Below are positions 9,434 through 40,394 of a DNA stretch of 40,995 bases, piece by piece. The notes below the pieces were generated by a model. The model did no database searches. It was not told the DNA's origin and saw nothing but the letters and a program-made list of their open reading frames with translations. The stretch lies in IMG/VR virus record IMGVR_UViG_3300002835_000411, positions 1 through 40,995 of that record, one strand, 5' to 3'. The first letter of the stretch is position 1. Each line of letters opens with the position of its first letter. The DNA comes from a virus. The position numbers were made by a program, and so were the translations under genes.

Positions 9434-10702
9434 ATGGATAAAAAACCAAATGTTTTCCCTCAAAGAGAACAACCACAAGTCAATTTAACTGATGCTGAAA
9501 GAATAGCTAATTTCGAACAAGAAAAAGCTATGGCTACTAATGAAATTTATGAAAATTCAAAAATATCAGATGAATTAAGTTACGCTCACAAAAATGCTGT
9601 TGAAATGATGAAGCAGCGTACCCAAGAACAAATTCAAAGAAAAAATTACGAAGGTATGGTTATTGAACCACAATTATCTGAAAACGCACCTAAAAAAGTA
9701 GATAATAATGCAGATTTAGTACGTAAAAGAGATGAACAGTTAAGAATGAATCAACAACAAACTCAAAATTATCAAAATATGTATGAAGAATCATACAATA
9801 GAGTAAGTAATAATAATAATAATAGTAATATGGAACAACAAAATAGGGTGACTAATACGCCACCGCCACCAACACCGCCATCAGTGCCGCCAGTTAATAA
9901 TTCGTATGAAAACTATGGTCAAAATCCTAGTAATATTGACCCACATATTTATGAATTAAGTCAACCTAATTATAACGCACCATTTGATTTAATTCCTTTA
10001 CCGTCAAGAGGTAAATTATATAGAAGTAAAAAACCTAATATTAAATTAGCTTATATGACTACTGCTGATGAAAATATTTTATCATCACCAAACTTATTAC
10101 AAAGTGGTCAGTTTTTGGAAATATTAATGAATAGAAAAATATTGGAACCAGAAATTAGATATAAAGATTTAACTATTGGTGACAGAAATGCTATCATGTT
10201 ATGGTTAAGAGCGACTGCGTATGGTGAAATGTATCCAGTAACAATTTTAGATGAATTGGGTGACCCATTTGAAACTGAAATTAATTTAAATGAACTTAAA
10301 GAAAATGAATTGGTTGCAGAACCAGATGAAAAAGGTGAATTTTTATTTGAATTACCGATAACTAAAAATGTAATTAAATTTAAATTTTTAACATGTGGTG
10401 ATGTTGATGATATTGAAAGAATATTAGAAAAAGAAAGAGAAAGAAATGTTTTAGTTAATAACGCTTCGACTTATAGATTAGAAAGACAAATTGTTGAAGT
10501 TAATGGAAACAGAGATAAAAGATATATTCAAGATTTTGCTTCATCATTAAGAATTGCAGATGCTAAGGCATTTAATACGTATGTTGAATCAATTGAGAGT
10601 GGCATTGACCTAAATATCAATGTGGCGACCCCAGGGGGAGGGTCTGTCGCTACCTTTCTTCCCCTTAGCGTCACATTTTTTTGGCCTAACATCCGACTAT
10701 AA
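9434..10702 (+). CDS. T4 gp26-like baseplate hub / tail assembly protein
   Basis: Residues 1-180 are charged, Gln/Asn-rich and low-complexity, with NNNNN and a PPPPTPP linker. The folded part starts at LPSRGKLY (189-196). Later segments are LTIGDRNAIMLWLRATAYGE, ELPITKNVIKFKFLTCGD and, at the end, TFLPLSVTFFWPN. This matches the T4 gp26-type baseplate family, although the CxxC zinc ligands common in relatives are absent. Gp26 helps assemble the hub. The gene lies between tail tube and tape measure, where many phages encode paired tail-assembly chaperones with programmed frameshifting, and its 3' end overlaps an open +1/-2 frame (10614-10967). A frameshifted longer product is therefore likely. 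The last 64 bases of overlap are unusually GC-rich. Confidence 0.75.
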   Translation: MDKKPNVFPQREQPQVNLTDAERIANFEQEKAMATNEIYENSKISDELSYAHKNAVEMMKQRTQEQIQRKNYEGMVIEPQLSENAPKKVDNNADLVRKRDEQLRMNQQQTQNYQNMYEESYNRVSNNNNNSNMEQQNRVTNTPPPPTPPSVPPVNNSYENYGQNPSNIDPHIYELSQPNYNAPFDLIPLPSRGKLYRSKKPNIKLAYMTTADENILSSPNLLQSGQFLEILMNRKILEPEIRYKDLTIGDRNAIMLWLRATAYGEMYPVTILDELGDPFETEINLNELKENELVAEPDEKGEFLFELPITKNVIKFKFLTCGDVDDIERILEKERERNVLVNNASTYRLERQIVEVNGNRDKRYIQDFASSLRIADAKAFNTYVESIESGIDLNINVATPGGGSVATFLPLSVTFFWPNIRL

Positions 10703-12633: not shown

Positions 12634-15366
12634 ATGGCTAAAAGTAGAAAACAAATAGAAGAAGAAGCTAGGATAGTCTTGCAGATGCTTGAAAAACAAG
12701 TTAATCTGCAAAATTCAGTAAATAGTAGTTATGACAAATACATTGAAGCTGTTAAGAAATATAAAGATATTCAAGCAACTTTAACGAAATCTATTGAACT
12801 AGAAAGAATTACTAGAAAAAAGATTTTAGACCATCAAAGTGGTGTTAATGTATTGTCAGCTCAACAATTAATTGAAGAACAGACTAAATTAAAAATTTTA
12901 GAAAAACAAAACTTCCAATTATCACTTCAAAGAAAATTATATAAAGATACTTTAAAAGAAGTTAACGCAATGAAATTAGCGTTAGCTGATTCTGTTTTAC
13001 CTACTTTAAAAGCTTTGGAAAAAATTCCAGGACTTTTTAAAGGTGCTTATAGTAATCTTAAAGGGTTAGGGTTATTTGAAATGGACAAGGCGATGAAACA
13101 ATCAGCTTTATCTATGGGTATCCTAAGTAAAGAGTCTGGTGGTTTCAGAGGTTCTATTATATCGGCATCAAAACAAACTGCTATTTTAGGTATTGGTATT
13201 AAAGAATTATCTCAAATACAAGCACAATATAGTGAAGGTGTAGGTACTACAGCTTTAATGTCTGAAAGGACCTTAAAAGCGTTAGGAGAGATGGCTGCTG
13301 CGACTGGGTTAGGTGCTGAAGGTACAGCTCAAATGGCTGTTGATATGAGAAACCAAAACGTTTCTGCTGAAAACACAGCAAAATTTGTGGAACAAACAAT
13401 GAATAGTTCTCATAAATTGGGTGTTGATGCTTCAAAGGTTGTTAAATTAGTTTCTAAAAATATTAAAATGCTAAACAAATATAACTTCAAAGATGGAGTT
13501 AAAGGTTTAGCTAAAATGGCACAAACAATAACCAAATTGGGTGTTGATATGGAATTTGCTGCTGGTTTTGCTGATAAACTTTGGGATGTTGAGGGTGCTG
13601 TTAATATGTCTGCTCAATTACAAGTTATGGGTGGTGCATGGGCTCAATTAGCCGACCCTTTCCATTTAATGTATATGGCTCGTAATGACATGGCTGGGTT
13701 AACGGAAGAAATTGGTAAGGCTGCTGAGCAATCAGTTGTATTTAATAAGAAAACTGGTCAATTTGACATGCCAGCAAAAGAAATGCATAGACTTAAAATT
13801 ATTGCCGAACAAACTGGTATTGCTTATGATGATTTGGTAACTGCTGGTAAGAATGCTAAGAAATTTAGTATGATTAACGCTCAAGTTAATTTTGATTTTG
13901 GTGGTGATAAAGACCTTAAAGAATATGTTACTAATAAATCATTCTTAGATGAAAAAGGTGACGCTAAAATTGTTTTAAATGGTGAGACTAAGTTACTTAA
14001 AACTTTATCTCAACAAGATAAAAACATATTAAAAACACAAATGCAAGAACAAGCTTCATTAAAGGCTAGAGCTCAAGAAGCACAATCATTTGATGAAACA
14101 TTATCAAATTTAATTATGCAATTGAAAATATATTTATTACCTTTGATAACTAAATTAAGCGACCCTAAAAAAGGTTTAGTTGCTAAATTGCAAGATTTCT
14201 CAGAAAAAATAAATAAAAAAGGTGGTTTAGGTGAAACTATCTCTAAATTAGCTGGTATTGTTGGTGATTTCGTGGCTGGTGTTGCTAATTTCATGGTTGA
14301 AAACCCAATGTTAGTTGCTGGTATTGCTGCATTTACTAAATCTATACCGTTGTTGATTGGTGGTATTAAATTATTTGGTGGTCTTTTTAACGCTGTTAAG
14401 TGGTTTATGAATGGTTTGGCACTATCTAAAGGATTTATGGTTGGAACTGGCGGTATGGGAGGTGCTGGTGGTGGCGGTATGAGAGGTGCAATGAATAGTA
14501 TAGGTGGTGGAACTGGTCAAATAGGTGGTGGTTTATTCGGTATGAGAAATGCTGGTGCTATGAGTAGAATGGGATTAGGTACTATGGGTAAAATAGGTGC
14601 TAACTTTAGAGGTGCTGCTGGTTCGGCTGGTGCTATCGGTGGTGGTCTATTGGCTGGTGGTATAGCTGGTTTTGGTGAATATGGTGAACAAAAAGAAAAA
14701 GGTAAAGGTACTGGCGAAGCTGTTGGTAGAGGTGTGTTAAAAGGGTTAGGTGCTGGTGGTGGAGCATGGGCTGGAGCTGCTGCTGGAGCTGCGTTAGGTA
14801 GTGTTATTCCAGTAGTTGGTACTATTATAGGTGGATTATTAGGTGGTGCTATTGGTGGTATGGCTGGTGGTAAATTAGGTGATTTAGATACTTATGGTGT
14901 TGATGATGCTATATTCACAAACCCTATAAATGATGGGTTCAAAGCTACTGGTCCTGGAGAAATGTTATCAAAAGCTATGGGTAAAAAATTTGGTTCTAAT
15001 CATTCAAAAGGTAATGGTATAATGACTAATGGTACTGTAACACCGATACATAACGCTGATAAAGTAAAGGCAATAATGGCTAGTAAACCTGGAGGTGGAA
15101 TTGATAGATATGAACGTGACATGTTTAAAAATTCATCTAATTCAGAACAAAAAGGAGTGAATAATTCAACTAAACATAGTTTTGAACCAATAAATGGTAG
15201 TATAACTGTTGAAATTCCTGGACTAAATAAATCTTTTAGTGTTGAAGATAAAGACGCTATGTTTGAAAGTTTAAAAGAACAATTAAAAAGGAAAGTTACT
15301 GAAGATGTGACAAATACAAGAGTTAAAAATAAAAATGGAGGTAAAACAAAACCAACTTATTCATAA
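12634..15366 (+). CDS. Tail tape measure protein
   Basis: Sets tail length and occupies the tube before ejection. The first 120 residues are a charged coiled coil (KQIEEEARIVLQMLEKQ, then SYDKYIEAVKKYKDIQ). A long helical region follows, then hydrophobic segments at about residues 545-580 (VENPMLVAGIAAFTKSIPLL) and a Gly/Ala-rich stretch at about 605-755 including AGAALGSVIPVVGTIIGGLL. These are typical of tape measures, whose hydrophobic parts may enter the host membrane. At 910 residues, an extended helix would span roughly 135 nm. Location downstream of tube and gp26-like genes fits. No peptidase or transglycosylase motif was seen in it; those lie in the hub protein. Confidence 0.88.
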   Translation: MAKSRKQIEEEARIVLQMLEKQVNLQNSVNSSYDKYIEAVKKYKDIQATLTKSIELERITRKKILDHQSGVNVLSAQQLIEEQTKLKILEKQNFQLSLQRKLYKDTLKEVNAMKLALADSVLPTLKALEKIPGLFKGAYSNLKGLGLFEMDKAMKQSALSMGILSKESGGFRGSIISASKQTAILGIGIKELSQIQAQYSEGVGTTALMSERTLKALGEMAAATGLGAEGTAQMAVDMRNQNVSAENTAKFVEQTMNSSHKLGVDASKVVKLVSKNIKMLNKYNFKDGVKGLAKMAQTITKLGVDMEFAAGFADKLWDVEGAVNMSAQLQVMGGAWAQLADPFHLMYMARNDMAGLTEEIGKAAEQSVVFNKKTGQFDMPAKEMHRLKIIAEQTGIAYDDLVTAGKNAKKFSMINAQVNFDFGGDKDLKEYVTNKSFLDEKGDAKIVLNGETKLLKTLSQQDKNILKTQMQEQASLKARAQEAQSFDETLSNLIMQLKIYLLPLITKLSDPKKGLVAKLQDFSEKINKKGGLGETISKLAGIVGDFVAGVANFMVENPMLVAGIAAFTKSIPLLIGGIKLFGGLFNAVKWFMNGLALSKGFMVGTGGMGGAGGGGMRGAMNSIGGGTGQIGGGLFGMRNAGAMSRMGLGTMGKIGANFRGAAGSAGAIGGGLLAGGIAGFGEYGEQKEKGKGTGEAVGRGVLKGLGAGGGAWAGAAAGAALGSVIPVVGTIIGGLLGGAIGGMAGGKLGDLDTYGVDDAIFTNPINDGFKATGPGEMLSKAMGKKFGSNHSKGNGIMTNGTVTPIHNADKVKAIMASKPGGGIDRYERDMFKNSSNSEQKGVNNSTKHSFEPINGSITVEIPGLNKSFSVEDKDAMFESLKEQLKRKVTEDVTNTRVKNKNGGKTKPTYS

Positions 15367-16110: not shown

Positions 16111-19100
16111 ATGCCTTTATATCCTACGTATAATACTTCGCCAGCTTCAGTTGTTAACAAAAACACAATAAACAGTGTTATGGCTACTAATCCAGTAAAT
16201 ATTCGTGACTGGTTATTGGTACTAAACTTAGCACCAAAATATCCAGATGCGTTAAAAAAAGCACCGTCAACGGTTAAAATTGGTGAACCAGTAACCGAAT
16301 TATATAATTCAACACCAATTAAATTAATTGACATTGTTGCATATGGTATTGCTAAAAAAACTGAAATTACTTTTTCAAATACATTTAAATCTGATACTCA
16401 AACACCTAACACACAAAAACCTTACGACATACTTCCTTATGTTGCTATTCAAAAGTTTGTTGATTTCGGTAATGTCAATACAACAGATTATCAAGCTTGG
16501 GGTCAATATCCTAAATTTCCAGATACAACTATTGATAAATATGGGTTATTAAGTAAAACTAGTGTTGCTAGTTATGTAAGTGATAATGTGTTTAAAAACA
16601 TTTATTCAGACCCTTCAAAACAAGTTGATGCGTCACCTTTTATAACTACCGAACCGCCTTCGTTAGACCCTACAAAACAAATTAAAGGTTATATTGACGA
16701 TAAAGGTAATTTATTGTTTGCTGGTGGTGGCGGTGGGTCGACACAAACTGCTGATATAATTGGTAGTTTGGTTACTGGACAAGGTGTTGGTTTCACACCT
16801 AATGGAGTTGTTAGTAATTACGATGTTAGGTCATCTTTGGCTGGCAGAGTGTTAGGTGCAACTGGTGCTATTGAAGATACAAAGTTAGGGAAAATAGGTG
16901 GACAACAATTATTATTAGCATTAACAAACAATGCAGCATTCAATGTTCAAGAATCAATTTTAGGTGGATTAAACTTAAAAGAAAACATTTATAGTTTATT
17001 AAAAGGAAAAGGCTTCGCTGGTTTTAGACCAAGTTATAAGATAACGATACCTAAAGGTGGTTTTACTCGTGTTTTAGACGCTGCTGCAACAATCTTAGGG
17101 TTTTCCTTACCTAGAAGTTATATGGACGATGAAGGGTCAATTTTTCAAGCTGAAAGTGGTCTTATTGATAATGTAAGTAGAGCTAATAAATTACTTTTAA
17201 ATACTGGTAAAGGTCAATTATTTGCTTTACTAGAAAATATGAACGCCAACGTAAACGGTACTGCTGATTATGATAGACCTAGTAATTTTGAAGGTTCAAA
17301 AAATCAATTTAGAACTGGTTATAACCCAGGTTATTTAAAAGACAATGAAGACCCAGATGAAAGAATTGATTCTTCAATATATGCATACTCCCAAGAAGGA
17401 TTAATAATTAATTTATTTAATACGGATGACGGAAGTGGTAAAGGTAATAAATATGCCATACCTACACTAAATTATAATAAAAAATTAATTGAAAGTGCTG
17501 GGTTTGTTGATTTTGCAACAAGTGGATTTGATAATTATGAGCAAGTAGATGGAACTTTAACCAATGATATTAAACATTCATGGGTTACAAAAGAAGGTGG
17601 GTTAGTAAACACATTTGATAGTGGATGGCATTCTACCGCTGGTAAAATTCTTAAACCCCTTGATGATGTACCTAATAAAAATATATTAAGAAAAACACAA
17701 ATTCTATTTGATTCCAATGGAATGAAAACTTTAGTTTCAAGAGAAGGTGATTTAACAGTAACGTCAAATCAGACTACAACCGCAAATGGTGGTGGTATTT
17801 CTAAAGGTAGTGCTGTTTTAACTGAGGATATGTATAACAAATCAACTGGTAGATATACAGCAATTAAAGATGCAGAACCAGAATTTGTTTACTGTCGTGC
17901 TTGGATGCCTACTAATAGATATGACCATGGTTATAATAAAATTAGGTCTCACGCTCTTTATACTAGTGATGGTGAAAATTCAGTACCTTATAGATATTAT
18001 ACTGAAAATTCAGTATTAGAAGATAGTGGTCATGTTAAAATTGCACCATACACAACTGATAACATAACTTCTTATAAAGAAGATGTTAAAAAATTCATGT
18101 TTTCTATTGAAAATTTAGCATGGCATGATGAACGAAATAACTTACCTAAAAGTGAACAAGGACCAGGTGATTTAATAGGTGGAAAAAGAGGTAGAATAAT
18201 GTGGTTCCCACCTTATGATATTAATTTTAGTGAAAGTTCATCAGTTGAATGGGAATCTAATAAATTTATTGGTCGTGGTGAATCAATTTATACATATAAT
18301 AACACCGAAAGAAGCGGCCAGTTATCTTTTAAAATAGTAGTTGACCATTCATCATACATGAATACGTTTAGAGGTTTAGATGGTCCAGATGATAATTATA
18401 TAGCATCATTTATGGCTGGTTGTATTGAACCAGATAGTGTATGGACTAACAAATTTACTGTAAAAGAAAGTGTTGAAAATGTAACTAAAGATTACAGAGA
18501 AAAAATACAAAAACCACCAGCTGAAAAAGAAGAAGAACCAACATTAATGAAAGTGTATTTCCCAAATGATAACGCTAATTTTGATGGTGATTTTGCTAAT
18601 TATGAAAATGGTAAATGTAACGGTACACCTATAGATTATACCACAAACCCAGATGGTAAAGATTGTGGTATTCCATCGTATAGAGGTAAATATACATCTA
18701 CCTCGTATTGGGAAGATAGAAATAATTTTGGAACAAATAATGGAGGAGAAAATGCTGTTAAGGTAACACTTATGGATAAAGAATATAAAGGTTATTTTAG
18801 TGAAAATGGGGGTGTTACTTATTACCAAGCATTAACAGAGCATTTAAAACAAAAATGTAAACATTGTAAAGTAGCTGTTATTGGTTATGCTAGTGACCAA
18901 GGTGAAAATACACCTAACGCTAAATTAGCTAAAGATAGAGCAACATATATAAAAAATTTATTGGTTGAAAATGTTGGTAAAAATTTAGGGTTGACTGACG
19001 AACAAATAGCTAAAAAATTTACAGCAAAATTAAGTAAGAGTAAAGAAATTCAACCAACTGGAAGTGAAACTATAAGTTATGTTTATAAAGGCGTAACTAA

Positions 19101-20358
19101 AAAAGTTAAAGTAAAAGTATCGGCTACTGGTTGCTACATATGTCCTAAAACCATTAAAAAAGATGAAAGACGTATTGCATGTCCAGTTGATAATCAAGGT
19201 TGTAAACTAGACCGTTTTGTTGATATTAAATTTACATTTGACCAAGCAGCAGCAGATGCAGAAGTTCCAGATGTTCCAGATAAAATTAAATACCAAGACC
19301 AAAGAATAACAAAAAAGGTTACGGATAAGTTTTATAATGAAAGTAAGTTTTTTGAATATTTAGAAAGAGGTGATAGGTTTGTTTTTGATAAAATTAGAGA
19401 TAAAATTAGATACTTCCACCCTTCATTCCATTCAACAACGCCAGAAGGATTAAATTCTAGGTTAACATTTTTATTACAATGTACAAGACAAGGACCTACA
19501 TTAGAAAACAAAGGTGCTGACAACTTAGCATTTGGTAGAGCCCCAGTATGTATTTTAAGAATTGGTGACTTTTATCACACTAAAATAATCATAGATAATA
19601 TTTCATTTGATTACGAACCTTTGGTTTGGGATTTAAATCCAGAAGGTATTGGTGTGCAGCCAATGATTGCAAATGTTAATATGTCATTTAAATTTATCGG
19701 TGGTGAATCTTTGTATGGCCCAATTAGTAGATTACAAAACGCTGTTTCATTTAATTTCTTTGCAAATACACACGTTTATGATGAAAGAGCTGATATCATT
19801 AAGAATGATGGTGGTGATTTTAGTTTAAAAATGGGTGTAACAGAAGGTTATGGTGAATCAGAATCTTCAGAAACTGTTGAAGATATTGGTGATAAATATG
19901 AAAAAGATGAAAATGGTAATCAAATTGGTGGTCCTTTTGATGATGATTTTTGGGGTAAACCAGAAGAACCAGATGAAACGCAAAACGATATTGAAAAACT
20001 ACAAAGTATTACAATGAAAATAGATAACATTGAAGAAAAAGGGTATACTGGTACTGGAGACAGAACACTTAATGGTATTTATAATTTAAATATAACAACG
20101 TCAAGTGAGTTATCAAAAGAGTATACAGCTAAATTAGTAGCTTATTCATTTGATAATATACCTTTTGGTTTTGGTGATGTCATTACAGTAGGTAAAGAAG
20201 GTACGTCATTAAGTATGAATATAACTATATATTTCGATACTTTTTTCTATAATGACGCTAAAGAACATGTTTATCGTTATGAATTACAATTTGATGATAT
20301 GGATGGTTTTAAAACACCAGGCACGTTTAAAGCTAACTTCCGTAGCAAAAAATTATAA
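16111..20358 (+). CDS. Large baseplate protein with an inserted OmpA-like domain
   Basis: A 1415-aa structural protein. Around residues 665-760 it has RIMWFPPYDINFSESSSVEW and GRGESIYTYNNTERSGQLSF, and after residue 1090 LRIGDFYHTKIIIDNISFDY with DLNPEGIGVQPM. Both are patterns of myovirus baseplate/tube-junction proteins. Between them (about 813-1045) is an OmpA-like fold: first strand KVYFPNDNANF, then VAVIGYASDQGENTPNAKLA, DRATYIKNLL, and the closing strand DRFVDIKFTF. D929 and R943 match the Asp and Arg that hold diaminopimelate in OmpA. Three cysteine pairs (CKHC, CYIC, CPVDNQGC) are inserted. I infer peptidoglycan gripping by the baseplate. It heads an operon with the 105-aa and 2281-aa genes. 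Confidence 0.8.
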   Translation: MPLYPTYNTSPASVVNKNTINSVMATNPVNIRDWLLVLNLAPKYPDALKKAPSTVKIGEPVTELYNSTPIKLIDIVAYGIAKKTEITFSNTFKSDTQTPNTQKPYDILPYVAIQKFVDFGNVNTTDYQAWGQYPKFPDTTIDKYGLLSKTSVASYVSDNVFKNIYSDPSKQVDASPFITTEPPSLDPTKQIKGYIDDKGNLLFAGGGGGSTQTADIIGSLVTGQGVGFTPNGVVSNYDVRSSLAGRVLGATGAIEDTKLGKIGGQQLLLALTNNAAFNVQESILGGLNLKENIYSLLKGKGFAGFRPSYKITIPKGGFTRVLDAAATILGFSLPRSYMDDEGSIFQAESGLIDNVSRANKLLLNTGKGQLFALLENMNANVNGTADYDRPSNFEGSKNQFRTGYNPGYLKDNEDPDERIDSSIYAYSQEGLIINLFNTDDGSGKGNKYAIPTLNYNKKLIESAGFVDFATSGFDNYEQVDGTLTNDIKHSWVTKEGGLVNTFDSGWHSTAGKILKPLDDVPNKNILRKTQILFDSNGMKTLVSREGDLTVTSNQTTTANGGGISKGSAVLTEDMYNKSTGRYTAIKDAEPEFVYCRAWMPTNRYDHGYNKIRSHALYTSDGENSVPYRYYTENSVLEDSGHVKIAPYTTDNITSYKEDVKKFMFSIENLAWHDERNNLPKSEQGPGDLIGGKRGRIMWFPPYDINFSESSSVEWESNKFIGRGESIYTYNNTERSGQLSFKIVVDHSSYMNTFRGLDGPDDNYIASFMAGCIEPDSVWTNKFTVKESVENVTKDYREKIQKPPAEKEEEPTLMKVYFPNDNANFDGDFANYENGKCNGTPIDYTTNPDGKDCGIPSYRGKYTSTSYWEDRNNFGTNNGGENAVKVTLMDKEYKGYFSENGGVTYYQALTEHLKQKCKHCKVAVIGYASDQGENTPNAKLAKDRATYIKNLLVENVGKNLGLTDEQIAKKFTAKLSKSKEIQPTGSETISYVYKGVTKKVKVKVSATGCYICPKTIKKDERRIACPVDNQGCKLDRFVDIKFTFDQAAADAEVPDVPDKIKYQDQRITKKVTDKFYNESKFFEYLERGDRFVFDKIRDKIRYFHPSFHSTTPEGLNSRLTFLLQCTRQGPTLENKGADNLAFGRAPVCILRIGDFYHTKIIIDNISFDYEPLVWDLNPEGIGVQPMIANVNMSFKFIGGESLYGPISRLQNAVSFNFFANTHVYDERADIIKNDGGDFSLKMGVTEGYGESESSETVEDIGDKYEKDENGNQIGGPFDDDFWGKPEEPDETQNDIEKLQSITMKIDNIEEKGYTGTGDRTLNGIYNLNITTSSELSKEYTAKLVAYSFDNIPFGFGDVITVGKEGTSLSMNITIYFDTFFYNDAKEHVYRYELQFDDMDGFKTPGTFKANFRSKKL

Positions 20359-20379: not shown

Positions 20380-20697
20380 ATGGCTAGATATGTAGATAGG
20401 TATTTACCTTTCAGAGAAGATGGTAAAATCAAACCAATACCTGGGTTAAAACTACCAGATGCAGACACAGATTTGTCTTATGTTTACAAACAAGGTACAA
20501 CAAGACTTGACAAATTGAGTAATATGTTTTATAATAATCCTTGGGGAGGGTGGTTAATATTAGCAGCAAATCCACAATTTGGTGGTTTGGAGTTTAACAT
20601 TCCAGATATGACGCTAATAAAAGTGCCTTACCCATATGAAAATGCTGTTCAAAGATATAGTGAACAAATAAATAAATATAAACAGTTATACGGATAA
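20380..20697 (+). CDS. Small baseplate protein, gp53/LysM-like (105 aa)
   Basis: The conserved core, TTRLDKLSNMFYNNPWGGWL then ILAANPQFGGLEFNIPD and TLIKVPYPYE, resembles the start of T4 gp53 (which has an ...LANAIYGNPQLYWVLL motif). It also resembles the small LysM-like tail proteins found beside the hub in contractile tails. It probably clamps tube, hub and wedge together. It lies between two large baseplate genes, 21 nt after the first and 2 nt before the next, so translational coupling is likely. No catalytic motif is present. The family name is moderately certain. Confidence 0.7.
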   Translation: MARYVDRYLPFREDGKIKPIPGLKLPDADTDLSYVYKQGTTRLDKLSNMFYNNPWGGWLILAANPQFGGLEFNIPDMTLIKVPYPYENAVQRYSEQINKYKQLYG

Positions 20698-20699
20698 TA

Positions 20700-23600
20700 A
20701 TGAGTACAAAAACAAATAGTATAGGTTGTAGTTCTGGTAGGGTGAAAATTGTTGACCCTAATGATTTCAATGGTTTCGATTCAAGTGATAACGTTCCAGT
20801 TGCGTTGGAAGATTTAAACATATCGGTTGCTTTAACTTCTTTTAAGAAAGGTAGAACGGTATTAACCAAAGGTGATAAAATTGATGATGTTAAAGTGTAT
20901 GCACAAACTAGCAAAACATTAAAAGTTAATTTTATTGAAGGTAGTGACATTACTGGTGATGGTAAAAGACATTTAACTACAGCATATACTGATTTAATTA
21001 CATCTAATGTTGATGGTGTGAATGAAGAAACGTTGGGTATTACAAGTATTGACATTGAATTTAACTCATCTTACGCACCATTAATTACAATTAATTTTGT
21101 TGATGTTAGAGGTAGTTCTATTTTTCAAAATGAATACAGAATAAAAAATTCTGAAAGTAAATATACAACTTTTTTCCAATTACCATACCCATTATTTGAA
21201 TTAGAAATTAAAGGGTTTTATGGTCTTCCAGTAAAATACTGTCTTCACATGTATAAGTTTAATTCAAAATTTAACTCTAAAACTGGTAATTTTGAAATAA
21301 CAGCAAACTTTGTTGGTTATACTTATGCTATGCTATCTGATATGTTATTAGGTTATTTAAAAGCAGTAGGTGAGACGACATTAGGTAAAGAAAGATACGC
21401 TGTTTATAATGAAGGTAAAGCAGACCCAGTTCCAACATTGAATGAGTTAGCTACTCAAATAAGTCAAATTAACCCAGGGTTAAGTGATGTTAATAAAGAA
21501 GAGGGTGGTGGTTATCAAGAAGCTTCAGAATCGATTGATATTATAGATGATATATCTGGCCAAATGGATACATTAGGTAGTAACATTGATAAAGATGCAG
21601 CGAATAAAACAGTTTTTGACTTTATTGTTTTGAAAAAAGATGATATTAACAAAGATTTTCAAAAAAGTAAAATAGAAGAAGAATATCAAAAAAAAGTTTA
21701 TAATAAAGACGATGAAGAAAGTTTAGTTTTAAAATTTAACGAAAAATCATCTAGTGATAAAATAGTTACTGCTAACTGGGTATTCAAATATGACACGTCT
21801 GGAGATGGTAATAGAGTTTATAAAGGTTTAACATTAGATAAACTTAACAATGCCACAACTACTGATTTAATTTCTTATTTTGGTAATTATACAACAAATG
21901 ACGATACGTTAAATGATTTAAAAGATTGTTTAAGTAAATACCACACTTCATTAAGTAATAATGAAGTTATTGATGTCATTGATATGCGTTTATTAAAACA
22001 AATCCTTAAATATAAAAAAGATAACGCAATAAACAAACAAAAATCAGAAAAATCTGCATTAGCTGATTCATATAAAGATGCTGTAAAATCAAAATTAGGG
22101 TTTGAACCAACAGCAAGACCAATGATTGAATGTTTTACAGCAGCAATTGAGGTACTATCTGAATGTATTTTTTTAGTTGCACAAGCTACTGGTTCTCATA
22201 CAGAAAGAACAAATGAATTAAAAAAAGCTTTTAAACTTGAAGGTAGTGGTTCTAAAAATAGTGATGTAAAAGGTAGATTCTTATCAGCTAACGATTATTT
22301 ACCATGGCCAGCGTATCAAGAGTATGATGTTGATAAAAAAGCGTATGTTGAAAAATATTTAGGTGCATCAAGTGCTATTGAAAATGTTTCAAACATTGAT
22401 GAACTTGTTTTTATTGACGAATTACATGAAGGGTTTAAAAAGTCGCAACAAAAACAAGAAGAAAATGACGCTAATTTAAATAACGAAACTATAGACGCAT
22501 GGTTTGCTGTTAACCCAATGGATTTAAAAGATTTTTCAGACCAAAAACCATACACTAGATTCAAACCAAAGACAGCCGATGAAGTAAACGCTGTTATGTT
22601 AATAAGAGCAATAACTTTTTTAGGTTACACAAATAACTTCCTTGCATTAAGTGAAGACGAGATAAAAGCGATGGCTAAAATTGAAGCTGAAGCTATTATT
22701 AGAGATATTGAAGATACTGAAGATAAAAAAATTAAAAGAGAGTTAACACAAAAAACAGTAGACACAATTCTTCAAACACAAGCAATTGTGAATAGTAGGA
22801 TTAGACCAGTTTTAAAGGACGTTGGTGGCTCCTATGAATATAATTATTTATATGACCAAACAGATATAAGAGTAATACCAGTTAATAAAGGTTTTATTGA
22901 TGAAGGTTGGGGTAACCCTAATGATGGATTTGATAAGGAACCAAAAAAAATTGTTAAAGTTTTAAGAGAAAATAAATCTGATGAAGGTTATATTTATTTA
23001 ACTAACTACAGTAGTGCCAGTATAAAAAATAAAAGTTTTTATAAGGAAGATGATGGTGGTGTTTATTTAAAAATAATAAAAAAAGAAGACATAACTGCTG
23101 GTCAATTACCTTCAGAAATTATTGGTGAAAATATTATTAATTATGAAGCATTAAAAAAAGACGAAATTACAAATTCTTCAGACGCTCAAGCTGCTGGTTT
23201 TAACTCTTTAGGTAGTCAATACGGCATTCAAGAGTATGTTAATATGAATTTTAATAACGATAATATTCCAATTGAAAATACATTTAAATATGTATTTTAT
23301 AAAACTACTTTTATTGATTCTAAAAATCTAGGTGCTAATATATCTGAACGTTGGGTAGGGTTAGCCTATACTAAAGAAAGTACGTATAAAATTATTAATG
23401 GTAAGGATGGTTCAACAAGTTCGGATAGTAGCTTTGTTAAAAATGAAAGCGAAAAAATACACACTGTAAATACAGAGCCAGCAAACTATATTAATACATC
23501 TAAAGATGGAACTAATTTACATGAAGGTGTAGGTAAGAACAGAACTTTTTTAGCATCAGATAATGACAACATAACTTATCCTTATATTACCGTAGGTAAG

Positions 23601-26600
23601 AATGATGAATCAAAATCTTTATTTGGTTCTTATTTTTATTATGATTTATATCATTCAAAAATATTTGATAATAAAGGTAAGTTTGTCATTAATTGTCAAA
23701 AACAAGCTAGAGCTATGGCTTTTTTGCATTCATTACCTTTTAATGTTACTGGTGACAATCCTTTTGGTTCACCAGCAATAATAAATACATTTAGATATAA
23801 AGGTGGTGTTATACATGCACCTAGACTATGGTGTGCGTATGTTGGTAGTGTCATATGGAGAAATTCAACAAGACTCCCAGTGATTGAAGACGGTAAAATA
23901 GTTGGTGGTGGCTCTGGCAGCAAAGACCCTATATATTGGGGTGATTATGATTGTGGACTTGGTATAGCGTCTACATTGCTTGGTGCACCTTGTTATAAAA
24001 GAAGTGAATATTTTCCTTTTTCTTTAGGTAATAATCCGCAAAGGGATATTGAAGATAATGATGTAATTAATAGATTACCTATACAAGTTAAAAATGAATT
24101 TATAAAAGTTTTTTTAGATTTTGTTACTGGTAACGGACCAACAGACTGGCCTTCGTTAAGAACAGAATTAGAAATTTACGATACAACAAATAATAATGAC
24201 CAATCTGCTGGATTTAGAGCTTTAGTAAAAGATTTAAAAGATAATGACCCTACTTATAATAAAATATTTAGTAAAAATGATGTCAATGGTGATATTATAA
24301 AAAAGAATTATTATATTTTTGCTCTCAATCAATCTGATGGACAAATATGGTTAACATTAAATGACAAATGTGACGCAACTGATAAATTAATAAAAGCACT
24401 TAAAGAAGAAGTAATTATTTTAAATAATAATTATAAAATATGGTCTAGTGATGGCGGTGGTGATACTGAACGTGCTATTGTTAAAGTAGAGCAAAGTCGT
24501 TTAAAAACATATTTAGACCAAGTTGTAGAGGTGTATAAATCAAATGAAGATAGTTTTAATAAAGCTAAAGAAGATAAAAGATTAGACAACACAATATTTG
24601 GAACAAGTAATAAAGATGAAATTAAATTAGGTTTATATAGAACATGTAAAAATATTTATGATAAATGGTTAGCTGGTGCCAATAACGTTGAAGATTTATT
24701 ATTTCAATGTGGTTCTAGAAGTGTTGTTGATGGTTTTTTAGCTAAAAAATATGGTAACAACAGAGCTAGACTAATTGATAGTTTTAGATTTGTCAGCAGA
24801 GCTTTTAGTGATATTGGTGATTTATTATATATTGACCCAACACCAATTAATGAATGGATAGGTAATAATACAAATATGAGTTCATACGAAGCCATCACAT
24901 CAATTTTAGCTTCAAACAACTTTGAATTTATTCCGTTACCTAATTTTATTAATTTTAATGACAAAGAAAATTTAGAATCAATATTTAAACCTTATAATTA
25001 CTCTACAGATAGAGTTAAAAATGGTACATGTGGTCCTTCGTTTGTTTGTGTGTATGCTGGTCAAAGTTCACAACACTTAGATTATTACGACAACGAATAT
25101 AAAGATGATGGTTTTGATTTAAGATGTGATAAAGGCAATATTGACCCTAGTATACCAGAAGATTTCACATCTGAAGTTAATGCTGATTACGAAGAACCTA
25201 TTGGAGCCTTTTCGGTTAAATATAGTCAACAAAACCAAAACCTTTTTAAAGATATTACATTAGACCAAAGTGAATTTACTGAAACTGATGAATCGTTGCA
25301 AATACAAGATGATATAGCACAAAAAGGTAGAGAAAATAATAAAAGTTATATGGGTCAAAACATATATAACGTTTATGCTGTCAGAAGTTATACTGCTGAA
25401 ATTGAAATGATGGGTAATGCCATGATTCAACCAATGATGTATTTTCAATTAGATAATATACCTATGTTCCATGGAGCATATATGATTACATCTGTTTCAC
25501 ATTCCATAATTCCAAACTCAATGAAAACTAAATTCAAAGGGGTTAGAATTAAATATACAAAAACACCATTGGTAACCGCTAAAGAAGTTTATGAGAATTT
25601 AATTGAAAATTCTGATTTTTCAAACTCCGAAAATGGAGGCGGTGGCGGAGGCGGAGGCAAAAGAGCCAGCGGTACTTACGAACCAATAGTAGCAACATTA
25701 ATTGAAAATGGTGTTGAAAATGGTTATATTGATTTTGGTAAAACTTATGGTTGTGTTACCACTAAAAAATTAACTGGAGGTAGTAAAAAATACTTTAACG
25801 TTACAGCAAACCCAGATTATATAATTGCCGAAGGTGCGGTAGCTTTTGATAAAATGCTTAATGATTTTGGTGACTGGATGGTAAAAGAAGGATACAAAAA
25901 GAATTCTGCTGGGTATTTTGGACATATTGGTTCTACGTATAGAAGTTATGCTTCACAAGCAGCAATTAAAGCTGGTAAAAATGGTAAAATAGCAGCAAAA
26001 GCTGGTAAATCATACCATGGATGGGGATTGGCTATAGACTGGGGATGGAATGATAAAAGTGGTAAACAACCATTTACAATTAAAAGTAGTGGTAGTTCAG
26101 ATGATGAATTTAAATTTGATAAAAACCCAGCTTTGAAATGGTTATATGATAACTCTTATAAATACGGGTTTATTAATCCAAGTTGGGCCAGAGACGGTAA
26201 TAGTTATCAAGAAGTATGGCACTGGGAATATCATGGTACATCAGCAATGTGTCTTGTAAAAGCAAGTCCTAACGTAGTTGGTGGTTATAAAATTCCAGTA
26301 CCAGATGATGCTAAATATGACCCTATTGTTAAAAACCCTAAGAAAAGTGATTGTAGTGAAAATGTGTTCGATAAAAATAGTTGTAAAGGGGTTAAAGTTA
26401 AAGGTGATGGTACTGAAGAAGGTGGTTCAATTAAAGGTGCTGTTCAAACTAGTGATGCCGAAACACTTAGTTTCTTTAAAAAAGTATTAAAAAAATTAGG
26501 TGCACCAGAAACAGAAGGTAATTTACTTTTCCTTAAAGCTTTTAGACAAGCTGAAGGTGGTAAAGCAACATGGAACCCTTTAAACACAACATGGAAAAAA

Positions 26601-27545
26601 GATGGTGCTACTAATTATAATAGTATTGGAGTTAAAAACTATAAGACAGAAGAAGATGGAGTTGATGCAACATATGAAACTATATTAAGTAAAAAATTTA
26701 AACTTTACCCAAATTTACTTAAAGCTCTTAAAGATGGTATTGCTGATAAAACAGCAGCTTATAATTTAGCTGTAGAATTACAGAAAAAAAATAAAGATTT
26801 ATGTATATGGAAAAGTGGTAAAGAGGGGTGTGCTGCTAGTTATGGTATACCTAGTAATAAATACGTTGCTGAGATATTAAGCTATAAAAAAATGTCTGGT
26901 GATAATATATGGAAACCAAAAGAAGGTTCAGATAAAAATGAAAAGTCAACACCAGCTAAATCAAAGAATAAACCTAAAACATTAGATTATATTGTTTATG
27001 GTGGTCTTGCCCCATATGGTGCTAAATGGATGGAAGAACAATGGATTGCAGCTGGATTACCAACAGACTCAGTTGTGTTTGAAGAATACAATGGTAGAAC
27101 TGTAGACGCTATACTAAAAACTTATCCAGGAAATAAAAAATGTCTTGGATGTAAGGGAATATTTGGGTTTTCAGCTGGTGGTCAACAAATTTGGGGTTAT
27201 GAATGTACTGCAAATTTTGAGTTTATTGGTTTAATAGACCCTTCAACAAGAGAAAAGGATATTAAAGGGGTGCTTAATTCGCAAGGGGATAATGAAGTGA
27301 GTCTGTTGTGTCATACTAAAATAATGTTTAATCCAACAAACTGGACGGGTAAATATAAATTTATTGGTAATAATTTATTGGAACTTAAAAAAGCAAAATA
27401 CGATAAAAAACGAAAATATGTAAATGAAGAGTACAGAAACAACTTAATTCCAGTTAATGATAAACACATAGACATACCATTAAAATTCTTTAAGAAATAT
27501 AAAGATTTAATAGAAAACGCTAAGAATATAGGTGATACTTGTTAA
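20700..27545 (+). CDS. Giant baseplate hub with peptidase, lysozyme-like and serine-hydrolase-like domains
   Basis: 2281 aa. Residues 1-1640 form the hub: SYAPLITINFVDVRGSSIF, FFQLPYPLFELEIKGFYG and, near 1600, MMYFQLDNIPMFHGAYMITS are typical of gp27/gpD-like hubs. A poly-Gly linker (about 1646-1653) precedes three enzyme-like modules. (1) M15 peptidase, about 1665-1850, with S1771-Y-H1773-G...D1780 and E1838...H1841 as zinc and catalytic residues. (2) A lysozyme-like domain, about 1910-2065, with FRQAEGGKATWNPLNTT (E1952) and NSIGVKNYKTEEDG. (3) An alpha/beta-hydrolase-like domain, about 2090-2281, with GFSAGG (S2158) and candidate D2180 and H2256. Peptide, glycan and perhaps ester-bond cleavage at the envelope is inferred. 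It is last in the 16111 operon. Confidence 0.85.
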   Translation: MSTKTNSIGCSSGRVKIVDPNDFNGFDSSDNVPVALEDLNISVALTSFKKGRTVLTKGDKIDDVKVYAQTSKTLKVNFIEGSDITGDGKRHLTTAYTDLITSNVDGVNEETLGITSIDIEFNSSYAPLITINFVDVRGSSIFQNEYRIKNSESKYTTFFQLPYPLFELEIKGFYGLPVKYCLHMYKFNSKFNSKTGNFEITANFVGYTYAMLSDMLLGYLKAVGETTLGKERYAVYNEGKADPVPTLNELATQISQINPGLSDVNKEEGGGYQEASESIDIIDDISGQMDTLGSNIDKDAANKTVFDFIVLKKDDINKDFQKSKIEEEYQKKVYNKDDEESLVLKFNEKSSSDKIVTANWVFKYDTSGDGNRVYKGLTLDKLNNATTTDLISYFGNYTTNDDTLNDLKDCLSKYHTSLSNNEVIDVIDMRLLKQILKYKKDNAINKQKSEKSALADSYKDAVKSKLGFEPTARPMIECFTAAIEVLSECIFLVAQATGSHTERTNELKKAFKLEGSGSKNSDVKGRFLSANDYLPWPAYQEYDVDKKAYVEKYLGASSAIENVSNIDELVFIDELHEGFKKSQQKQEENDANLNNETIDAWFAVNPMDLKDFSDQKPYTRFKPKTADEVNAVMLIRAITFLGYTNNFLALSEDEIKAMAKIEAEAIIRDIEDTEDKKIKRELTQKTVDTILQTQAIVNSRIRPVLKDVGGSYEYNYLYDQTDIRVIPVNKGFIDEGWGNPNDGFDKEPKKIVKVLRENKSDEGYIYLTNYSSASIKNKSFYKEDDGGVYLKIIKKEDITAGQLPSEIIGENIINYEALKKDEITNSSDAQAAGFNSLGSQYGIQEYVNMNFNNDNIPIENTFKYVFYKTTFIDSKNLGANISERWVGLAYTKESTYKIINGKDGSTSSDSSFVKNESEKIHTVNTEPANYINTSKDGTNLHEGVGKNRTFLASDNDNITYPYITVGKNDESKSLFGSYFYYDLYHSKIFDNKGKFVINCQKQARAMAFLHSLPFNVTGDNPFGSPAIINTFRYKGGVIHAPRLWCAYVGSVIWRNSTRLPVIEDGKIVGGGSGSKDPIYWGDYDCGLGIASTLLGAPCYKRSEYFPFSLGNNPQRDIEDNDVINRLPIQVKNEFIKVFLDFVTGNGPTDWPSLRTELEIYDTTNNNDQSAGFRALVKDLKDNDPTYNKIFSKNDVNGDIIKKNYYIFALNQSDGQIWLTLNDKCDATDKLIKALKEEVIILNNNYKIWSSDGGGDTERAIVKVEQSRLKTYLDQVVEVYKSNEDSFNKAKEDKRLDNTIFGTSNKDEIKLGLYRTCKNIYDKWLAGANNVEDLLFQCGSRSVVDGFLAKKYGNNRARLIDSFRFVSRAFSDIGDLLYIDPTPINEWIGNNTNMSSYEAITSILASNNFEFIPLPNFINFNDKENLESIFKPYNYSTDRVKNGTCGPSFVCVYAGQSSQHLDYYDNEYKDDGFDLRCDKGNIDPSIPEDFTSEVNADYEEPIGAFSVKYSQQNQNLFKDITLDQSEFTETDESLQIQDDIAQKGRENNKSYMGQNIYNVYAVRSYTAEIEMMGNAMIQPMMYFQLDNIPMFHGAYMITSVSHSIIPNSMKTKFKGVRIKYTKTPLVTAKEVYENLIENSDFSNSENGGGGGGGGKRASGTYEPIVATLIENGVENGYIDFGKTYGCVTTKKLTGGSKKYFNVTANPDYIIAEGAVAFDKMLNDFGDWMVKEGYKKNSAGYFGHIGSTYRSYASQAAIKAGKNGKIAAKAGKSYHGWGLAIDWGWNDKSGKQPFTIKSSGSSDDEFKFDKNPALKWLYDNSYKYGFINPSWARDGNSYQEVWHWEYHGTSAMCLVKASPNVVGGYKIPVPDDAKYDPIVKNPKKSDCSENVFDKNSCKGVKVKGDGTEEGGSIKGAVQTSDAETLSFFKKVLKKLGAPETEGNLLFLKAFRQAEGGKATWNPLNTTWKKDGATNYNSIGVKNYKTEEDGVDATYETILSKKFKLYPNLLKALKDGIADKTAAYNLAVELQKKNKDLCIWKSGKEGCAASYGIPSNKYVAEILSYKKMSGDNIWKPKEGSDKNEKSTPAKSKNKPKTLDYIVYGGLAPYGAKWMEEQWIAAGLPTDSVVFEEYNGRTVDAILKTYPGNKKCLGCKGIFGFSAGGQQIWGYECTANFEFIGLIDPSTREKDIKGVLNSQGDNEVSLLCHTKIMFNPTNWTGKYKFIGNNLLELKKAKYDKKRKYVNEEYRNNLIPVNDKHIDIPLKFFKKYKDLIENAKNIGDTC

Positions 27546-38582: not shown

Positions 38583-40394
38583 ATGCCAAATGTAAATTAC
38601 GACTCTAGGAACTTTGTCGATATTAGAACAGACCTAATTAATTATGTAAAACAATATTATCCAGATATCTATGCTGACTATAATGATGCATCTGTAGGTC
38701 AGATGTTAATAGATTTAAACGCTGCTGTTGGGGATATGTTATCCCATAATACAGACAGAATGTTTGCTGAAACACAAATAGATTATGCACAAGAAAGACA
38801 TTCGTTGTTATCATTAGCTAGAACATTTGGATTAAACATTCCAAATAAGCGTGCTAGTTCAACAATTGTAGATGTAAGTATTACAATACCAGTATTTGGT
38901 GATACTTTTGATGTATCATATGCTCCATTGCTTAGAGCTGGGTCACAATTTAATGGTGCTGGTAAAGTATTTGAATTGCTTTATGATACAGACTTTTCAA
39001 GCCCATTTAATAAAAATGGTATCCCTAATAGAATAGTAATACCTAATATCAATGCTAACGGTACAGTATTAAACTATACGTTAACAAAAAGAGAAATGGT
39101 TGTTAATGGGGCGACAAAAATATTTAAAAGAGTCTTAACAACACAAGATGTTATTCCTTTTTTAGAAATTATATTACCAGATAATAACGTTACTGAAGTA
39201 TTATCATGTATTACATTACCAGGTACAAATTTACAAGGTCAACCAACAAATTCACAATTCAACAATAGTAATATTAGATGGTATGAAATGTCATCATTAT
39301 CTGAAGATAAAGTTTTTATCACTGATAACAATAGAGTGACTCAAAATACTACAGTTACGCCAGGTAAATGGATGTCTACATCTAAAAAATTTATTAAAGA
39401 ATATACTGATTTAGGTTTTACAAAAATAACTTTTGGTGCTGGTTCACAAAATATAAGTAGTTTATGTGATTTTAACGTTGACCCTAGTTTAGTTAATCAA
39501 ATAGGAAACTTTATAAACAACATGGCATTAGGTGAAATACACACAGCAAATACAACATTATTCATAAAATATCGTGTTGGTGGTGGTAGTGATACTAATG
39601 TAGGTCCAAATACAATTACTAATTTAGGACTTTTAGATATGGTAATTAATGGACCTTCTGCTACAATTAATCAAAGTGTTAAAAAGACATTAAAAGTAAA
39701 TAATATTTTACCAGCTGTCGGTGGTAAAGACGCACCTACAGTCGAAGAAATAAGATACATGGTTAAATATAACTTTGCCTCACAAAATAGAGCTGTAACA
39801 ATTAAAGACTATCAAACTAGGATTGCACAAATGCCAGGTAATTTTGGTACTCCATTTAGAAATGGTATTTTTGAAGATAGAAATAAAATTGCTGTTTATA
39901 TTTTAACATTAGATAGAAATGGTAGGTTGTCTAACGAATCAAACACTACATTAAAAGAAAATATATCTAATTATTTAGCTGACTACAGAATGTTAAATGA
40001 TTATGTTCATATAAAAGACGGTAGGATTATTAATTTAGCAATTGATTACGATGTCATGATTGATGCCAAAGTACCACAATCACAAATTATATCTGAAATT
40101 ATTAATAAGACTAAGGAGTATATGGATATTAATAAATTTGATATGGGTGATAATATTTATTTATCTCCATTGATTGAAGTTATAAATAATATTGGTGGTG
40201 TACTAAACGTAACAAACGTTTCAATTTATAATAAAGTTGGTGAAAATAAATATAGTTTAAATGAAATTTCGCAGCCTTATTTAGATGATGAAACAAGATT
40301 AATTGACGTAAGTGCAGATTACACTTTGTTTGGTGAACCTACATCAATGTTTGAAATTAAATTCCCAACAGATATTAGAGTAAGGGTTAAATAA
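38583..40394 (+). CDS. Baseplate wedge protein (T4 gp6-like, baseplate J family)
   Basis: Forms the ring of wedges that triggers sheath contraction. The N-terminus, NFVDIRTDLINYVKQYYPDI followed by DYNDASVGQMLIDLNAAVGD, is typical of baseplate J/gp6 proteins. The middle has APTVEEIRYMVKYNFASQNR and AVTIKDYQTRIAQMPG, the conserved region of the family. The C-terminus ends FPTDIRVRVK. It is 603 aa (T4 gp6 is 660). It follows gp25, matching the usual gene order in contractile tails. Confidence 0.93.
   Translation: MPNVNYDSRNFVDIRTDLINYVKQYYPDIYADYNDASVGQMLIDLNAAVGDMLSHNTDRMFAETQIDYAQERHSLLSLARTFGLNIPNKRASSTIVDVSITIPVFGDTFDVSYAPLLRAGSQFNGAGKVFELLYDTDFSSPFNKNGIPNRIVIPNINANGTVLNYTLTKREMVVNGATKIFKRVLTTQDVIPFLEIILPDNNVTEVLSCITLPGTNLQGQPTNSQFNNSNIRWYEMSSLSEDKVFITDNNRVTQNTTVTPGKWMSTSKKFIKEYTDLGFTKITFGAGSQNISSLCDFNVDPSLVNQIGNFINNMALGEIHTANTTLFIKYRVGGGSDTNVGPNTITNLGLLDMVINGPSATINQSVKKTLKVNNILPAVGGKDAPTVEEIRYMVKYNFASQNRAVTIKDYQTRIAQMPGNFGTPFRNGIFEDRNKIAVYILTLDRNGRLSNESNTTLKENISNYLADYRMLNDYVHIKDGRIINLAIDYDVMIDAKVPQSQIISEIINKTKEYMDINKFDMGDNIYLSPLIEVINNIGGVLNVTNVSIYNKVGENKYSLNEISQPYLDDETRLIDVSADYTLFGEPTSMFEIKFPTDIRVRVK

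Follow-up and report, generated by a model that had tools for sequence, protein, structure and literature searches.

A single intact open reading frame in the 40,995-nucleotide stretch of viral DNA analysed here (hereafter the window) encodes a protein of 2281 amino acids that carries three consecutive enzyme-like domains at its C-terminus. The best explanation as a whole, to which we give a probability of roughly 0.6, is that the protein forms the baseplate hub of a contractile phage of T4-like type, probably with a host in the Bacteroidota, and that it bears an exchangeable payload made up of an M15 peptidase, a probable glycan cutter and a small serine hydrolase. What is surprising is not so much that two wall enzymes are carried on a hub, but that the enzyme cassette is swapped rapidly between related phages.

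Organization and integrity of the protein

The open reading frame (20700-27545, + strand) begins with an ATG at 20700 and ends with a stop codon at 27543-27545. From N- to C-terminus the protein comprises a hub-like core, a glycine linker, an M15/VanY peptidase, a helical domain in which one glutamate is invariant, and lastly a small domain containing the sequence GFSAGG. The core (residues 1-1640; 20700-25619) ends in YMITSVSHSI...FKGVRIKY, and is joined to the payload by a linker (25620-25676) that includes a run of eight glycine residues beginning at residue 1646 (25635-25658). The peptidase occupies slot 1 (25677-26369) and the helical domain slot 2 (residues 1917-2061; 26448-26882). A second linker, rich in lysine, asparagine, proline and serine (residues 2062-2095; 26883-26984), leads to the small domain in slot 3 (residues 2096-2275; 26985-27524). 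The candidate active-site residues picked out in the first-pass annotation, i.e. H1773, D1780, H1841, E1952 (within QAEGG), S2158 (within GFSAGG), D2180 and H2256, are all present at those positions.

The C-terminus is identical in contigs L002 and L003, which derive from different metagenomes, and the three domains occur in the same order in two further relatives (L004 and L005), the cores of which are 70% and 56% identical to that of the window. Since the C-terminus is letter-identical in the first two and the order is retained in the others, the tandem arrangement is neither an assembly chimera nor the product of chance. The origin of the window in a metagenomic contig, and the variability of payload boundaries across the hub family, might suggest an assembly artefact or a decayed fusion devoid of function. 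We regard this as very improbable, given that L002 and L003 are independent yet identical, that L004 and L005 keep the domain order and that dN/dS is below 0.55 in every domain.

Genomic context and probable host

The genes encoded in the window are those of a contractile-tailed phage. They include a tail sheath (5135-7921), a protein identified by PHROGs as a baseplate hub subunit (9434-10702), a tape-measure-like protein (12634-15366) and a baseplate wedge protein (38583-40394), together with a ribonucleotide reductase, gp32, a RecA-like protein, a 5′-3′ exonuclease and a DnaB-like helicase. The sheath is 928 amino acids in length, and its last third alone matches most known sheaths.

Directly upstream of the long open reading frame lies the gene for a 105-amino acid protein (20380-20697, + strand) resembling the small baseplate wedge protein gp53. 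In hhalign comparisons it gave probabilities of 75 with gp034 of the Flavobacterium phage vB_FspM_immuto, 36 with T4 gp53 and 15 with a 111-amino acid protein of phage Mel-JY01, while unrelated controls did not exceed 1.6. The gp53-like gene is followed by the hub in the window, just as 53 is followed by 5 (the hub/lysozyme) in T4, and gp034 by gp033 in immuto. We therefore infer from the gene order (i.e. the gp53-like neighbour, the sheath upstream, the wedge downstream and the immuto gp033 counterpart) that the window protein is the baseplate hub of a T4-like contractile phage. When the core was compared directly with gp27 and gp5, hhalign picked up no similarity (probability <1); it matched no profile and no solved hub in the PDB. 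Searching named phages by tblastn gave no match to the hub, and none that was credible for its middle or third domain. A 2255-amino acid protein of Mel-JY01 was considered as a counterpart of the hub by virtue of its size and was rejected; its ending is not hub-like, and a 671-amino acid protein encoded behind the gp53-like gene of that phage fits instead.

A large protein encoded upstream of the hub (16111-20358) contains an OmpA-like peptidoglycan-binding stretch at residues 912-954 (PF00691, E = 3e-4, below the Pfam cut-off). This could possibly provide a wall anchor beside the wall enzymes.

Related hubs are found in contigs binned as Bacteroidota (metagenome-assembled genomes, L127-L130) and in one Prochlorococcus single cell (L126), and for other tail genes of the window immuto is among the few named relatives, or is the best of them. 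The host is probably a member of the Bacteroidota. The Prochlorococcus relative of the hub has no recognized enzyme payload.

The peptidase domain

M15 enzymes cleave the stem peptides of peptidoglycan. Residues 1737-1846 (25908-26237) match the Pfam VanY family PF02557 with an E-value of 9.9e-11, above the curated cut-off (a score of 42-45.6 bits compared with 25), and a search of PDB profiles matched the carboxypeptidase YodJ (E = 5e-4). The zinc-binding and catalytic motifs SxHxxGxAxD and ExxWH are both present. The hub-borne M15 domains that were aligned, 25 in number, all share H1773 (26016-26018), D1780 (26037-26039), E1838 (26211-26213), W1840, H1841 (26220-26222) and E1843. E1838 is the glutamate of ExxWH, and was absent from the residues listed in the first-pass annotation; the M15 assignment made there is upheld by a Pfam match at ~1e-10 and by zinc and catalytic residues that are invariant in 25 relatives. 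The sequence of slot 1 firmly indicates an M15 zinc peptidase.

The middle domain

The helical domain in slot 2 recurs in phage tails. It is shared by other hubs and by further large phage proteins, and two of the carriers that are not hubs are tape-measure-like, judged by their endings. E1952 (26553-26555) is invariant in all 21 aligned sequences, tape-measure-like proteins among them. The family has the motifs WNPxNTT and VKNY, with the glutamate at the end of a helix and WNPxNTT following it. AlphaFold2 predicts a helical domain with confidence (pLDDT 84), in which E1952 is placed at the end of helix 2 (helix 23-36).

The segment had initially been assigned to the lysozyme superfamily, but the match expected from this was absent from Pfam, from PDB profiles and from Foldseek. 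The domain has no match in Pfam or among PDB profiles, and its alignment by hhalign to GH24 and Phage_lysozyme2 was not significant. A Foldseek comparison of the pLDDT 84 model with the PDB returned no lysozyme but only MltF, with an E-value of 8 and a TM score of 0.32. For these reasons we do not file the domain as a lysozyme. The invariant glutamate at the end of a helix, together with the context of the slot, nevertheless points to a lysozyme-like mode of working, and the domain is probably a glycan cutter of the lysozyme or transglycosylase type with E1952 as general acid. A confident model that lacks a lysozyme-like match in the PDB, and the lack of a Pfam match, might be expected of a structural or wall-binding helical domain, leaving the M15 enzyme alone to cut peptidoglycan. 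That seems to us unlikely. It would leave unexplained a glutamate kept at a helix end, ahead of WNPxNTT, in 21 diverse sequences; sister hubs hold GH24, Phage_lysozyme2 or Hydrolase_2 domains in the same slot; and the weak, non-significant alignment with Phage_lysozyme2 sets E1952 on the glutamate of the NixxES motif of that family.

The third domain

The domain in slot 3 was found in three lineages only, i.e. the window, L004 and L005. Scans of viral sequences with each of the three relatives revealed no fourth lineage, and a pattern scan of bacterial genomes revealed no relative. The domain has no match in NCBIfam, and the window did not match the Pfam Abhydrolase_6 or Ser_hydrolase models; neither the middle nor the third domain was recognized by any profile library searched.

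S2158 (27171-27173), D2180 (27237-27239) and H2256 (27465-27467) are invariant in all three lineages, the domains of the other two being 43-57% identical to that of the window. S2158 and H2256, proposed at the outset as nucleophile and histidine of a serine hydrolase, thus do not vary freely in homologues but are fixed in three distinct relatives. The nucleophile elbow is GFSAGG or GFSGGG in each lineage and D2180 lies in LIDPST; both stretches are among the best kept. For this domain the dN/dS ratio is ~0.36 in the comparison with L004 and ~0.49 in that with L005, the corresponding values for the core being 0.28 and 0.36. The third domain is constrained but evolves faster than the core, and is the fastest-evolving of the four regions (43-57% identity, compared with 58-72% for the core).

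An AlphaFold2 model calculated from the three sequences only (pLDDT 70, pTM 0.75) has alternating strands and helices. The serine is located right after the strand 58-62 and the aspartate right after the strand 80-84, although the helix expected to follow the serine falls in a stretch of low confidence. The acid D2180 is found after strand 6 rather than at the commoner position after strand 7, where there is an asparagine; the spacing of 22 residues between serine and aspartate fits an acid at the former position. An acid after strand 6 is a feature of pancreatic-type lipases. Foldseek comparison with a viral library gave alpha/beta, serine or putative hydrolases at ranks 1-4, with a best E-value of 0.05 that is not significant. 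Against the PDB, PurE ranked first and RBBP9, lipase and thioesterase domains were matched with E-values of 0.2-0.6, none of them significant. As a calibration, the profile of the domain was compared by hhalign with 38 proteins of E. coli K-12 encoded in five stretches of the chromosome, each of them surrounding a known alpha/beta hydrolase. These five enzymes took ranks 1, 2, 3, 5 and 6 of the 38, with low probabilities; the chance of this under random ranks is ~8e-6. Note that the ranking is driven mostly by the short GxSxG stretch of the nucleophile elbow. The sequence and model point, with moderate confidence, to an alpha/beta hydrolase with S2158, D2180 and H2256 as putative catalytic residues. 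The initial reading of the hub C-terminus stands for the M15 peptidase, the domain with the invariant glutamate and the putative Ser-Asp-His hydrolase, all of which are under purifying selection, but not for the identity of a lysozyme, which finds no support in Pfam, PDB profiles or Foldseek.

A sister hub (L048) ends (...YKPK) in the stretch matching the start of the second linker of the window, so that the third domain looks to have been appended to an existing two-enzyme payload. In a tree of hub cores the window groups with L004 and L005 in a single clade (support 100), and the domain was therefore most simply gained once and then kept.

Payloads across the hub family

Relatives of the hub core are encoded in 245 IMG/VR stretches, of which 80 were kept; the payload counts are based on 56 that are non-redundant. 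The Pfam families represented are VanY (25 payloads), Hydrolase_2 (11), Phage_lysozyme2 (10), DUF2272 (7), M23 (6) and Phage_lysozyme (4), with GDSL lipase, M74, SLT and CHAP in fewer. Using local profiles, at least two recognized enzyme domains were found in 43 of the 56, usually with a peptidase type first and a glycan cutter second. Slot 1 mostly holds an M15, M23, DUF2272 or M74-like domain, or one that is SLT-like. Slot 2 holds Phage_lysozyme2 (to which the L007D2 payload group belongs), GH24, Hydrolase_2, the middle domain of the window, SGNH or an unnamed group. Three tandem domains are present in just three payloads, those of the window and its two relatives. The fusion had been described as unusual; a pair of wall-degrading domains is in fact normal in this family (43/56), whereas the third, serine hydrolase-like, domain is rare (3/56).

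An SGNH esterase-like domain is carried by five of the 56 hubs (L026, L041, L043, L079 and L049). It always adjoins a glycan cutter (SLT-like in four cases and Phage_lysozyme2 in one) and never an M15 domain. That of L026 matches Pfam Lipase_GDSL with 23.9 bits compared with a cut-off of 23.6 (E = 5.4e-5), while that of L049 is unmatched.

Several groups of payload domains have no clear match in Pfam, comprising those in slot 2 of L006/L018/L037 and of L014/L033/L042 (with L031 standing alone), and also L013 and L068. Two of the unmatched groups, L006D2 and the NPGNLR group, are recurrent. Such groups are possible undescribed wall enzymes. In L051 (269922-270713 of the 345-kb contig G016) the hub ends prematurely, and a payload of DUF2272 type is found in a separate frame of 370 amino acids; hub and payload may have become two proteins, or the gene may be frameshifted.

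Exchange of cassettes between sister phages

Closely related hubs can bear unrelated payloads. L026 (SLT and SGNH) and L047 (DUF2272 and Phage_lysozyme2) have cores that are 99.6% identical over 696 amino acids, and between them the whole C-terminal cassette of the hub has been cleanly replaced (14983-16238 in L026, 13941-15115 in L047). The cores of L018 and L059 are 95.6% identical; the M15 domain is common to both and the second enzyme is different. The remaining swapped pairs have core identities of 93.7% (L043/L067), 91.5% (L064/L070) and 86.6% (L014/L015). In all five pairs the DNA sequences diverge either in the linker or between slot 1 and slot 2, and they match again from a point no more than ~25 bases away from the last sense codon. 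The junction lies inside the linker that corresponds to the glycine linker of the window in several sister hubs, and some pairs exchange only the second half of the cassette. A tree of 57 hub cores requires a minimum of 39 changes in the architecture as a whole, with minima of 22 for slot 1 and 31 for slot 2.

Switching of cassettes inside one genome was also considered, and is unsupported. Searching for one whole cassette and for the VanY family in 24 related contigs of up to 368 kb revealed no second, silent copy inside a hub, and the exchange is therefore between phages.

We suggest, tentatively and at somewhat less than even odds, that the hub C-terminus is a hypervariable payload site at which whole cassettes are swapped at a fixed junction, and that the third slot supplies an envelope-de-acylating or lipid-cleaving activity directed against modification of the host wall. 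If this were so, the chemistry of wall penetration would be a fast-evolving determinant of host range in addition to receptor binding, and the wall-cutting enzymes may become adapted to the host at the same pace as the receptor-binding parts.

Proposed mechanism

Delivery of the hub on contraction of the sheath is established for T4. In the window phage, contraction would carry the hub and its C-terminal payload into the envelope to reach the periplasm, where the M15 zinc peptidase would cut the peptidoglycan stem peptide and the middle domain would probably cut the glycan strand. The third domain, acting through S2158, D2180 and H2256, would most likely de-acylate an envelope glycan, taking off O-acetyl or another ester-linked group, and this could let the peptidase and the middle domain work. 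A lipid ester would be the second choice of target. De-O-acylation of glycan is our first choice because O-acetylation of MurNAc blocks lysozymes and transglycosylases alike (PMC6174289), and because the SGNH module of sister hubs always accompanies a glycan cutter. If the third domain is active, one virion protein would cut peptide, glycan and ester.

The first-pass annotation had proposed that an ester or lipid bond may be cut, with outer membrane and wall under attack together. On this reading the third domain would be a hydrolase of lipase or phospholipase type by which the outer membrane is opened. The GFSxGG elbow of the putative alpha/beta hydrolase and its acid in the position used by pancreatic-type lipases would be in keeping with this, as would the weak Foldseek matches to a lipase and thioesterases. 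Mycobacteriophage LysB, moreover, is a phage esterase that opens the mycolate outer membrane (PMC6116005). On the other hand the domain is small (~180 amino acids), and neither a lid nor a hydrophobic segment is obvious in it. No lipase profile matches it, it is placed behind the two wall enzymes rather than ahead of them, and a contractile tube penetrates the outer membrane in any case. We consider the lipase doubtful, though of the alternatives it has the best claim, and de-O-acylation of an envelope glycan to be at least as plausible as a joint attack on outer membrane and wall. Less likely again is a non-catalytic relative of the alpha/beta hydrolases that binds an envelope polymer of the host. 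Binding modules evolve rapidly, as does this region, and an asparagine stands where the acid is usually found, but the serine, aspartate and histidine are all retained in three lineages at identities of 43-57%, with GFSxGG and LIDPST among the best-kept stretches. A catalytic domain acting on an ester of the envelope glycan remains our preferred reading.

Comparison with known systems

Virion lysins with two enzymes (PMC5380687) and a baseplate Tal protein with an SGNH domain (PMC4876445) are already known. In the open-access papers searched we found no report of a hub with a peptidase, a probable glycan cutter and a serine hydrolase-like domain in tandem, nor of payload swapping at a fixed junction in a hub family.

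The window hub resembles T4 gp5 in that its gene follows that of the gp53-like protein, and in bearing a wall enzyme on the central baseplate hub; the Phage_lysozyme (GH24-type) domain of T4 is itself present in the sister hubs L015, L059, L064 and L067. However, T4 has one lysozyme inside gp5 and a separate gp27, while the window protein has a core of 1640 amino acids with the enzymes at its C-terminus, numbering two or three in the family. Immuto gp033 (annotated as a carboxypeptidase, 938 amino acids) is likewise encoded behind a gp53-like gene and has a hub-like core and a C-terminal VanY M15 domain (Pfam E = 6.6e-10) preceded by a proline-rich linker. It differs in having a single enzyme, and in a core that cannot be aligned with the window hub family.

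In Staphylococcus phage phi11, gp44 (Tal) is a baseplate hub protein with an esterase-like domain (PMC4876445). It has an endopeptidase-like N-terminus and an SGNH C-terminus of putative activity, as in the window, but the fold is SGNH, the phage is a siphovirus of a Gram-positive host and there is neither an M15 nor a middle domain. Gp49 of the same phage (amidase and lysozyme) combines a peptide-side enzyme and a glycan cutter in one tail protein (PMC5380687); virion lysins of this type have two enzymes without a hydrolase, and differ from the window-type hub core. LysB of mycobacteriophages, a phage-encoded esterase, is directed like the proposed third domain against an ester of the envelope, in its case mycolyl-arabinogalactan (PMC6116005). 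Unlike that domain, LysB is a free lysis enzyme acting at exit, and no sequence match to the window domain was found.

Tail lysins are mostly portrayed as an unchanging accessory to the hub. The present family resembles instead a natural combinatorial library, with at least eight recognized enzyme families in two or three slots and swaps between cores that are 87-99.6% identical. Near-identical cores with swapped enzymes make possible a direct test of whether tail wall enzymes restrict host range, and the same library allows a test of what the rare ester hydrolase-like modules do.
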